Positions 37,457-41,518 of a stretch of 64,000 nucleotides of DNA are shown in pieces. The notes under the pieces are model-generated. The model saw only the letters and a list, made by a program, of their open reading frames with translations. It was not told the origin of the DNA and did no database searches. Origin of the DNA: Candidatus Abyssobacteria bacterium SURF_5. GTDB lineage: Bacteria > Abyssobacteria > SURF-5. Numbering within the stretch: the stretch's first letter is position 1; each line of letters begins with the position of its first letter. The stretch is from assembly GCA_003598085.1 (NCBI GenBank), contig QZKU01000144.1:1-64000 (forward strand), written 5' to 3'. A program made the position numbers and the translations under genes.

Positions 37457-37491
37457 AAAGCTCCTTTCCAATGGGGTCAGTCTTACATTAT

Positions 37492-37614
37492 GATTCTGCT
37501 GCAAAACCCTCACTCTCGGGTTCAACCGCGCTATGGTAGGTGCGAATTTATTCGCACATTCAAGACTGGCCGAATGAATTCGGCCCTACCAAAGGGGGGC
37601 TCTGCAGTGGAATC
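37492..37614 (+). mobile_element. MITE copy 1 (123 bp, no coding capacity)
   Basis: The ends are imperfect inverted repeats: GATTCTGCTGCAAAACCC on the left, and on the right GGCTCTGCAGTGGAATC (reverse complement GATTCCACTGCAGAGCC). Inside are two palindromes, GTGCGAATTTATTCGCAC and GGCCGAATGAATTCGGCC, enclosed by GGTAGG...CCTACC. The element is flanked by a perfect 7-bp direct repeat, ACATTAT, a target-site duplication. Nearly identical copies lie at 38524-38651 and, inverted, at 41363-41485. Confidence 0.85.
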
Positions 37615-37696
37615 ACATTATTACGTTTTGCTAACGGAAGAAGCTGTTTGCCCCTGAAACGACACGTTTCGCTTTTATCTTGGAATCCAGTGCCTG

Positions 37697-38395
37697 TTAC
37701 GGCACCCAGAACGGCCCGGTTTTTCCGATCTCCCGCAGCGTGTTGAAGAATTCGGGCATGAATTCCTGCATGCGCGAAATGTAATCCGGCTCCATTCGCT
37801 TGCGGAAAAAATCGATCGAGAACAGTTTTACCAGGTCCGCCACCGGTATGATGCCCGCCTCGGTCGCGGGATCAAACTGCTTCCAGTTTCTCAGATGTTC
37901 TTCCGACCGGAAGAAGTTCATCGTGCTTCAGGCAAAGCCCGGATCTTGCATCCACGAGAAGAACGGAACGGAGACATGCCCGATGATCTCTTCAGGCTGT
38001 TTCTTGAGGATTTGACCGTCCTTGACCTCGACGTGGATCGGCTCGCCGCAATCGAGACAGGGAGAATCAATATTAATGATCTTGCCCGGAAAAAGCCAGC
38101 AGACTGCCAGCGACTCGAATGCTCACTGGCCAAACCATTTCTGAAGGCCGTCAATCGTGATTCGGTACTGGTTCTGCAGGTTGTGAAACGGGGCCATCGA
38201 AACCAGCAGGTCGGTCTTGGGGTAGAGCCAGCCGGGCACGCCCGAATTGATCAGGTTGTGCAGCGCCTGGCGCCCCTCCTCCATCGAAACCCCCAACTCC
38301 TTCGCGATTTGGGTGTAATGCGGCGCCTGTCCCGTTTCGACCATCCCTCTCATGATGATGTTGAACGTTCTGTCCAATTGCGTGGGTTCGGCCAT
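37697..38395 (-). CDS. Candidate double-selenocysteine alkylmercury-lyase (MerB)-like protein; two in-frame TGA codons
   Basis: One frame of 232 codons runs from the ATG at 38395 (AGGAGG just upstream) to the final stop, interrupted only by TGA at codon 91 (38123-38125) and codon 156 (37928-37930). The translated parts match the alkylmercury lyase fold: an N-terminal winged helix (HYTQIAKELGVSMEEGRQAL), then FGQ-[TGA]-AFESLAVCWLFPG, SPCLDCGEPIHVEV, and GFA-[TGA]-STMNFFRSEEHLRNW. By my by-eye alignment to MerB from memory (WCALD and FCCHVHFFAS), the TGAs fall on catalytic C96 and C159, and Glu94 falls on D99. Spacing is 65 residues against 63. Each TGA is followed by a SECIS-like hairpin. No ribosome binding site precedes an internal ATG after the second TGA, which argues against separate genes. 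The alternative is a pseudogene with two nonsense mutations. TGA is an ordinary stop elsewhere in the window. Whether the substrate is organomercury is unknown. Confidence 0.8.
37898..37915 (-). promoter_or_regulatory. SECIS-like hairpin after the second in-frame TGA
   Basis: Minus-strand TTCTTCC-GGTC-GGAAGAA: a perfect 7-bp stem with loop GGUC, the loop starting 19 bases after the TGA. In the E. coli fdhF SECIS, recalled from the literature, a GGUC loop starts 18 bases after UGA and its G and U contact SelB. Confidence 0.7.
38095..38111 (-). promoter_or_regulatory. SECIS-like hairpin after the first in-frame TGA
   Basis: Minus-strand GCTGGCA-GTC-TGCTGGC: a 7-bp stem with two G-U pairs and a GUC loop that begins 18 bases after the TGA. 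The apex GCAGUCUGC is one base short of the fdhF apex GCAGGUCUGC. Confidence 0.65.
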
Positions 38396-38440
38396 ATGCT
38401 CATCCTCCTGTCCTTTGCCGCGACCTTTAAAGCCGCCGAA

Positions 38441-38469
38441 ATTATATGAGGTTTCGCTAACTATTTCAA
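38441..38469 (-). promoter_or_regulatory. Sigma-70-type promoter for the MerB-like gene
   Basis: On the minus strand TTGAAA (38464-38469), a 17-base spacer and TATAAT (38441-38446) lie 46 bases before the ATG. An intact promoter and ribosome binding site argue against a decaying gene. MITE copy 2 lies further upstream and leaves it intact. Confidence 0.75.
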
Positions 38470-38523: not shown

Positions 38524-38651
38524 GATTCTGCTGCAAAACCCTCACTCTCCGGTTCAACCGCGCTATGGTAGGTGCGAATTTATTCGCACATTCAAGTCAA
38601 GACTGGCCGAATGAATTCGGCCCTACCAAAGGGGGGTTCTGCAGCGGAATC
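38524..38651 (+). mobile_element. MITE copy 2 (128 bp)
   Basis: Same orientation as copy 1, with a 5-bp internal duplication (TCAAG) that accounts for its extra length. It is flanked by CATGATA and CATGAAA, a 7-bp target duplication with one mismatch. It lies in the divergent intergenic region between the MerB-like gene and the lipoprotein gene and adds a spurious upstream reading frame to the latter. Confidence 0.85.
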
Positions 38652-38724
38652 CATGAAAAACTCCTTTTGGTTTATAATATGCAAAATCCGAATAATCCCG
38701 GGTCCATCGAATAGGAGGAGAATA

Positions 38725-39948: not shown

Positions 39949-41364
39949 ATGGCCCAAAGAGATGATATGCGCCGCTTCTTCTCGCCCCAATCGGTTGCCA
40001 TTGTCGGGGTCCCGCGCAAGCCCGACCGCTTCGGCGGCGGAAGCTTTCTGGCAAAACTGCTGGAATGCGGTTTTCCCGGAAAACTGTTCCCGATCAATCC
40101 GGGTGCGGACGAAATCCTCGGACTCAAGGCATATCCTTCTCTCTCATCGCTTCCTGTCGCGCCTGATCTCGTGATCGTTAGCGTGGCGGCCGCCCATGTT
40201 CCGGCAGTCCTCGAAGAATGCGCCCGCCTCGGCGTGCGGCACATTCATATCCTTTCATCAGGCTTCAAAGAGATCGGTACGGAAGAGGGCGGGCGCCTTG
40301 AGGAGCGGGTACGAAAGATTGCAGGCGAGATGAACTTGCTCATCATCGGCCCCAACTGCATGGGGCCATATTGCCCGTCCTCACGATTGACCGCCTGGGG
40401 CGCCATTCCCGGCATGAGCGGACCGGTCGGCGTCATCTCACAGAGCGGCGGTATCACGCAACGGCTGACGGAATACCTCTTTTCAATGGGAATCGGGACA
40501 GACAAGGCCGTCAGCATCGGGAATGCCGCCGTCCTGGATACTCCCGATTATCTTGAATTCATGGCTCATGATGAGAACGTCCGCGTAATCGCGATGTACC
40601 TGGAGAGTGTGGGCGACGGCAGGAGATTTTTTCAGTTGGCGCGCAGGATCACGAAAAGCAAGCCGATCGTGGTCTGGAAAGGCGGTGAGACAGGCGTCGG
40701 CGCCCGCACGGCGGCGTCCCACACCGGCACGCTCGCGGGTAATCATGCCCTATGCGAAGCCATGTTCCGCCAGAGCGGAATCACGCACGTGCGTTCTTTA
40801 CATGAATGGGCCGACGCCATCATAGCCTTTGCCTTGCTGCCGAAACCGCAGGGCAGACGGGTGTTCCTCATTGGCGGCGGTGGAGGCAACAGCGTCGGCA
40901 ACAGCGACACATGCATCAGGGAAGGCCTCGACGTGCCAAGGCTATCGGAAGCTAGTATGAACAGGCTTCGCGAAACTGTGCCGGTCGCGGGTTCCATCGC
41001 GGGCAATCCTCTTGATATGTGGCGCATATTCGACGACCCGGATTACCTGCTGGAAATCCTTGAACTGGCATATGACGAGCCGAACGCAGACATGCTTATT
41101 GTGGATCGTTTGATCCCCCGGAAGGCGTTCCACATGGAAGAACGGGCCGATGCGACGGCGCAGATCGCGAAGCTGATGAGAAAACACCTGCTCGAAAAAC
41201 CGACCGTTGTCACCGCCGACTCCGACGGCGGCGACCCGGAATTGGCGGCAAAGGGGGCGGCTCTGCGCGCCAAATTCACCAGCGCCGGCATACCAGCTTA
41301 TCCCTCGCTCCAGCGTGCCGCCCGCGCCCTCGCTCATCTATATCGATCCGGACGTCATCTTTGA
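39949..41364 (+). CDS. NDP-forming acyl-CoA synthetase, alpha-type (CoA-binding and ligase-CoA domains only)
   Basis: The product is 471 residues. The N-terminal CoA-binding Rossmann domain (FFSPQSVAIVGVPRKPDRFGG) is followed by succinyl-CoA-ligase-like flavodoxin domains with IIGPNCMGPYCP, GVISQSGGITQRLTEY, and the phosphohistidine motif SHTGTLAGN near residue 265. The ATP-grasp domain of full-length enzymes is missing, so a separate beta subunit would be needed to make acyl-CoA from acid and ATP or GTP. No beta gene is adjacent. The stop codon TGA is formed at the junction with MITE copy 3. Confidence 0.85.
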   Translation: MAQRDDMRRFFSPQSVAIVGVPRKPDRFGGGSFLAKLLECGFPGKLFPINPGADEILGLKAYPSLSSLPVAPDLVIVSVAAAHVPAVLEECARLGVRHIHILSSGFKEIGTEEGGRLEERVRKIAGEMNLLIIGPNCMGPYCPSSRLTAWGAIPGMSGPVGVISQSGGITQRLTEYLFSMGIGTDKAVSIGNAAVLDTPDYLEFMAHDENVRVIAMYLESVGDGRRFFQLARRITKSKPIVVWKGGETGVGARTAASHTGTLAGNHALCEAMFRQSGITHVRSLHEWADAIIAFALLPKPQGRRVFLIGGGGGNSVGNSDTCIREGLDVPRLSEASMNRLRETVPVAGSIAGNPLDMWRIFDDPDYLLEILELAYDEPNADMLIVDRLIPRKAFHMEERADATAQIAKLMRKHLLEKPTVVTADSDGGDPELAAKGAALRAKFTSAGIPAYPSLQRAARALAHLYRSGRHL

Positions 41365-41485
41365 TTCCGCCGCAGAACCCCCCTTTGGTAGGGCCGAATT
41401 CATTCGGCCAGTCTTGAATGTGCGAATAAATTCGCACCTACCATACCGCGGTTAAACCCGAGAGTGAGGGTTTTGCAGCAGAATC
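41363..41485 (-). mobile_element. MITE copy 3 (123 bp, inverted)
   Basis: Reverse orientation relative to copies 1 and 2, the same length as copy 1 and almost identical in sequence. It is flanked by ATCTTT on both sides (6-bp target duplication). The insertion point lies within the stop codon of the NDP-forming ligase gene. Without the element the reading would be CAT CTT TAG; with it, CAT CTT TGA. The protein is therefore unchanged. Confidence 0.85.
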
Positions 41486-41518
41486 ATCTTTAGGAGATGA
41501 CCCCGGCTCCGAATGCTC

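Follow-up and report, generated by a model that had tools for sequence, protein, structure and literature searches.

Does a MerB-like gene in which UGA stands at both positions aligned with the catalytic cysteines of the organomercurial lyase encode an enzyme with two selenocysteines, and if so, what might such an enzyme do? The question is raised by a gene on the reverse strand (positions 37,697 to 38,395) of the window, a 64,000-nucleotide stretch of DNA from Candidatus Abyssobacteria bacterium SURF_5 (GCA_003598085.1, contig QZKU01000144.1). The gene runs from an ATG at 38,395 to a TAA at 37,697 and comprises 232 codons plus the stop. Its translation confirms the preliminary description, according to which the frame is interrupted only by TGA at codons 91 (38,123–38,125) and 156 (37,928–37,930). 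That description had also credited the gene with its own promoter and ribosome-binding site. The AGGAGG site stands (38,404–38,409, reverse strand, 8 nt 5' of the ATG), while support for the promoter is limited to an 11/12 consensus match, TTGAAA-17-TATAAT (38,441–38,469, reverse strand), in a scanned stretch of 1.3 kb where chance alone would give about one such site. The gene sits by itself between copies of a 126-nt interspersed repeat, one 3' of it (37,490–37,615) and one upstream of the promoter-like sequence (38,524–38,656), neither assigned to a strand. This repeat contains internal palindromes and is present in three copies within 4 kb, the third at 41,358–41,487. A 184-codon ORF antisense to the MerB-like gene (37,895–38,449, forward strand) is most probably a shadow frame produced by codon bias. 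Nothing about function can be read from the neighboring genes, which are a fucose isomerase-like gene, a gene for a dihydrolipoamide dehydrogenase-like flavoprotein and an ORF without assignment.

Translated through both TGAs, the gene product matches the Pfam MerB family PF03243 with an E-value of 1.7e-20 (73.7 bits, gathering cut-off 27), and MerB2 (5c17) is its only PDB match by sequence. AlphaFold2, given an alignment of the fetched homologues as input, returned a model with a pLDDT of 96 and a pTM of 0.90, for which a Foldseek search of the PDB yielded 11 matches at E<0.001, all of them MerB or MerB2 (TM-scores by query of 0.49–0.65). In an alignment that includes MerB R831b, codon 91 corresponds to C96, Glu94 (38,114–38,116, reverse strand) to the proton donor D99, Cys113 to C117 and codon 156 to C159, so that the placement of the two TGAs and Glu94 originally made by eye proved correct. 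The window protein thus shares with MerB (PF03243; PDB 3f0o, 3f2f, 5c17) the fold, the C96/D99/C159 and C117 columns and the N-terminal helical domain, but differs in its predicted selenocysteine (Sec) at both catalytic cysteines, in Glu for Asp99, in a C-terminal extension and in its location outside a mer operon. The curated MerB models are missed (NF009710, 37.1 bits against a cut-off of 193; NF033555, 34.1 against 200). The Cys96/Asp99/Cys159 set of MerB is not met literally, the window gene having UGA, Glu and UGA; it is plausible that these are functional equivalents, though different residues.

To describe the spread of the two UGAs we use C for Cys and U for TGA, in the order of columns C96 and C159. 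Among 97 homologues, 48 are C/C, 26 are C/U and 23, including the window gene, are U/U, with no U/C case and with no residue other than C or U in either column. The aligned core of these genes holds 72 TGAs among 10,240 codons, 49 at C159, 23 at C96 and none elsewhere. Four fragmentary genes were excluded from this count, including L121 (G714), which also has a TAG. Both TGAs of the window gene recur in 22 further genes and none occurs elsewhere in the core, which excludes a chance origin and bears out the earlier argument that random nonsense mutations would hardly hit exactly the two catalytic cysteines. The proton-donor column is acidic (D or E) in every aligned Sec member, with Glu in the Asp99 column of one group of sequences, subfamily A.

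The same genome contains a second MerB-like gene (G000:C38:44741-45142, L002:1468-2217) that is about 19% identical to the first and has TGA in both catalytic columns followed by a different first-site hairpin. The remaining two genomes of this small phylum have the same pair of TGAs, in members of subfamily A (G001) or of subfamilies A and B (G002), the latter alongside a classical C/C MerB. Among the U/U genes are relatives from another two genera of the family as well as from Chloroflexota, where a gene from one metagenome-assembled genome is 50% identical to the window gene and has both TGAs. Chloroflexota were surveyed twice (400 and 393 genomes), and many more homologues came from these surveys. 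A large group of Chloroflexota loci (L040, L044, L046, L049-L051, L054, L068, L071-L079, L117, L118, L122-L128) encodes MerB-like proteins with a single Sec, always in the C159 column. A separate locus, L116 (G459), has two paired MerB-like genes, both C/C and both carrying Glu where MerB has D99; they sit close to the Sec clade, at the end of a very long branch. In a tblastn search of plasmids for double-Sec copies, no match covered more than 80% of the query; those listed were 25–26% identical and several were annotated as merBA.

These distributions bear on the simplest objection, that the gene is a decayed merB with two nonsense codons or a product of sequencing or assembly error. Standard annotation would indeed give three fragments (ORFs of 90, 78 and 74 aa), as expected of such a gene. 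Yet the identical two TGAs are present in independent genomes of two phyla rather than the scattered stops of decay, there is no other lesion and the hairpins described below are conserved. Between three genera that all keep both UGAs, dN/dS is 0.05–0.23 before, between and after the UGAs wherever dS is measurable, although dS is high or saturated in several comparisons. Purifying selection persists past both UGAs. Conservation and dN/dS together rule out a pseudogene, and we give this explanation practically no weight.

The genome encodes the complete selenocysteine machinery. Adjacent selA and selB genes lie on contig C41, with SelB scoring 381 bits against a cut-off of 242 and selA recognized by its place and sequence without a model score. 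The tRNA-Sec gene (selC) is located at C101:41144-41238 (67.5 bits, cut-off 47) and selD at G000:C42:20143-21069 (388 bits, cut-off 125). This selD itself contains one in-frame TGA, which points, from within the genome itself, to UGA being decoded as Sec here. The SelD genes of the ten other Sec-MerB genomes tested have an in-frame TGA too. SelB is over the cut-off in 9/9 U/U genomes tested and in 22/23 of the Sec-clade genomes whose gene has Sec at C159; in the exception (G249) selB is partial and selD full. Conversely, four Sec-clade relatives with Cys at C159 (L080, L083, L081 and L089) come from genomes G024, G043, G086 and G366, in all of which both selB and selD over cut-off are absent. 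This association is significant (Fisher p = 2.8e-4), with the reservation that three of the four belong to one clade, leaving about two independent events.

A frame that is open once UGA is recoded does not by itself prove Sec, and UGA could instead be read as another residue such as Trp or Gly, or be passed by simple near-cognate readthrough. Against this stand the presence of SelA, SelB, tRNA-Sec and SelD, the Cys found at the aligned position in all non-UGA homologues, the limitation of UGA to two columns and the replacement of UGA by Cys in genomes lacking SelB and SelD. The last two observations rule out an alternative code or plain readthrough, for which we see only the slightest remaining chance.

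Bacterial SECIS elements of the fdhF type consist of a hairpin just after the UGA with G-U in the apical loop. Hairpins of this kind follow both UGAs of the window gene, which differs from the fdhF type in having two of them in one gene and in that the C159-site hairpin is tied to (R/W)SE after Sec. The hairpin for UGA156 (37,898–37,915, reverse strand; UUCUUCC-GGUC-GGAAGAA) places its loop 19 nt after the UGA and has a folding z-score of -2.08. A position-specific definition, requiring an [AG]GUC loop at nt 19 and 4 or more pairs, fits 44/49 Sec sites at C159 and 2/48 Cys sites (p = 2e-19, kinship ignored). Across 29 Sec sites 96.1% of the cells pair, 16 cells show two-sided changes and the covariation score was reached by 0/500 shuffles. 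The constancy of this hairpin is due in part to the encoded peptide. RSE or WSE occupies the hairpin position in 43/49 Sec proteins while Cys proteins vary there, and for this reason the hairpin appears to dictate the protein sequence at this place. When SECIS elements were scored by folding energy in general, over 57 nt, Sec and Cys sites were poorly separated because the whole region is free to fold, while the position-specific hairpin did separate them.

The hairpin for UGA91 (38,095–38,111, reverse strand; GCUGGC-AGUCU-GCUGGC) has its loop 17 nt after the UGA. A stem with this GCUGGC-NNNNN-GCUGGC-type pairing is present in 20/20 subfamily A genes, and GU at loop positions 2–3 is found in 16/16 subfamily A U/U genes and lost in 2/4 Cys96 members. 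Subfamily B possesses a different first-site hairpin (GCCCUU-CGUGC-AAGGGC, loop at nt 26, 7/7 genes). The folding energy of the UGA91 hairpin is not beyond that of shuffles, and its stem hardly varies, so that covariation gives little support. Overall, the hairpin evidence is strong at UGA156 and conserved but statistically weaker at UGA91.

Taken together, these lines of evidence support double selenocysteine as strongly as sequence data allow, and we regard Sec at both codons 91 and 156 as nearly certain, with the caveat that its insertion is itself inferred, there being no protein or 75Se data.

To follow gains and losses of Sec we built a tree with both catalytic columns masked. C/C, C/U and U/U states interchange on this tree, with five state changes at column 96 and six at column 159. 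The C/U members of subfamily A (L079, L117, L118 and L122) are mixed among its U/U members. Three other C/U genes (L077, L123 and L126) are scattered outside the main Sec clades and have their own distinct hairpins, which suggests separate Sec gains. Subfamilies A and B as one clade were not rejected (p-AU 0.557) and their first-site hairpins differ in loop position (nt 17 in A, nt 26 in B); Sec96 of the two subfamilies may or may not have arisen in a single gain.

A MerB-like selenoprotein has been named before. SaoL (NF040728; Haft and Gwadz, 2023, via PMC13188914) is a MerB-like organometallic lyase and a selenoprotein, and it is the one MerB-like family in a 2026 review of prokaryotic selenoproteins, with a CU motif and a Sec count of 1 (PMC13188914). 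The window protein shares with SaoL its character as a MerB-like selenoprotein and differs in having two predicted Sec where SaoL is listed with one. Membership in SaoL was rejected: the window protein scores 40.8 against an equivalog cut-off of 140, and the matched part ends before UGA156. Ten other Sec-MerB proteins scanned reached at most 56.7 against the same cut-off, and five scanned single-Sec MerB-like proteins of Chloroflexota were likewise far below it. The review also tabulates two double selenoproteins, MbdU (NF045648) and the UxxU metal-binding protein NF041115, that resemble the window protein in their two predicted Sec and their link to metals; they differ in belonging to unrelated models, neither of which matches the window protein. 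A double-Sec MerB was not found in the open literature on MerB, alkylmercury lyase or organomercurial lyase in combination with selenocysteine, and prior notice in two Haft papers is not excluded. Within the literature searched, the double-Sec MerB-like enzyme is a real and so far undescribed enzyme type.

In MerB, C96 or C159 complexes Hg, and D99 takes a proton from the other Cys and gives it to the leaving carbon (PMC4525700). By analogy, we propose that UGA is decoded as Sec at both catalytic positions (Sec91 = C96, Sec156 = C159), each UGA being followed by its own SECIS-like hairpin that would recruit SelB and Sec-tRNA. An organometal, in the simplest case methylmercury, would then have its metal bound by the two selenolates, and Glu94 would take the role of Asp99 and protonate the leaving carbon. 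Cellular thiols or selenols would finally receive the metal from between the two seleniums. Selenolates would be fully ionized and have a higher affinity for soft metals than thiolates, so that the likely gain of a Sec pair is binding and activation at low substrate levels and its likely cost product release. Cleavage of organomercury is a good inference, resting on fold and catalytic triad only. On that basis we consider organometal-carbon lyase activity probable, and lean only a shade less toward the statement as a whole, a double-Sec MerB-fold enzyme with MerB-like chemistry, most simply on methylmercury, in which Sec insertion, lyase reaction and mercury are all inferred. The candidate double-selenocysteine MerB-like gene proposed in the preliminary description is thus supported by columns, machinery, hairpins and relatives, with the substrate of the lyase inferred only.

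Se-Hg bonds are very strong, and two seleniums should grip Hg(II) so tightly that it is not obvious how the enzyme would turn over, and the protein may sequester the metal or act on a different one. It could then be a MerB-fold double selenoprotein without turnover, one whose seleniums capture or carry Hg(II) or some other soft metal with high affinity, or a sensor. The strength of the Se-Hg bond is consistent with such a role, as are the stand-alone gene, the replacement of Asp99 by Glu in subfamily A and the lack of a MerA, either linked to the gene or over the cut-off elsewhere in this genome. MerA is over the cut-off in 3/10 genomes tested, this one not among them. We nevertheless judge a trap or sensor unlikely, though worth keeping in mind, given that the proton-donor column remains acidic in every aligned Sec member and that U/U and C/U interchange with C/C on the tree. 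Alternatively, the enzyme could be a lyase for an organometal or organometalloid other than organomercury, as proposed for the SAO system. SaoL, named in PMC13188914 as an organometallic lyase belonging to a Sec-assisted organometallic system, gives the highest score among the curated models, albeit a weak one, and there is neither a mer operon at the window gene nor any mercury gene nearby. No SAO-like transporter was found among the immediate neighbors of the window gene, and none of the scores comes near the SaoL cut-off; we consider a different organometal a rather improbable substrate. HgcA was over the cut-off only in G001 among the genomes tested, not in this genome, and inspection of ORF lists by eye revealed no conserved neighborhood among 11 loci of U/U relatives.

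Returning to the proposed double-Sec lyase, both catalytic thiols of a metal-binding pair are exchanged for selenium in a manner conserved across two phyla (at least 23 genes). Its C/C, C/U and U/U relatives are natural comparisons that allow a direct test of the effect of selenium on Hg-C cleavage and product release. We advance only tentatively, at slightly less than even confidence, the broader view that organometal lyases built around a diselenolate active site are a widespread class, with Sec at C159 alone or in both columns but never at C96 alone, and with the SECIS element of the 159 site fixing (R/W)SE in the protein. Standard gene calling cuts every such gene at the first UGA, and surveys of merB or demethylation potential in anaerobic environments would consequently miss them. 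If this view is true, these organisms possess an enzyme that uses two seleniums to split organometals, and merB-like genes invisible to standard annotation could explain part of the methylmercury loss by anaerobes.
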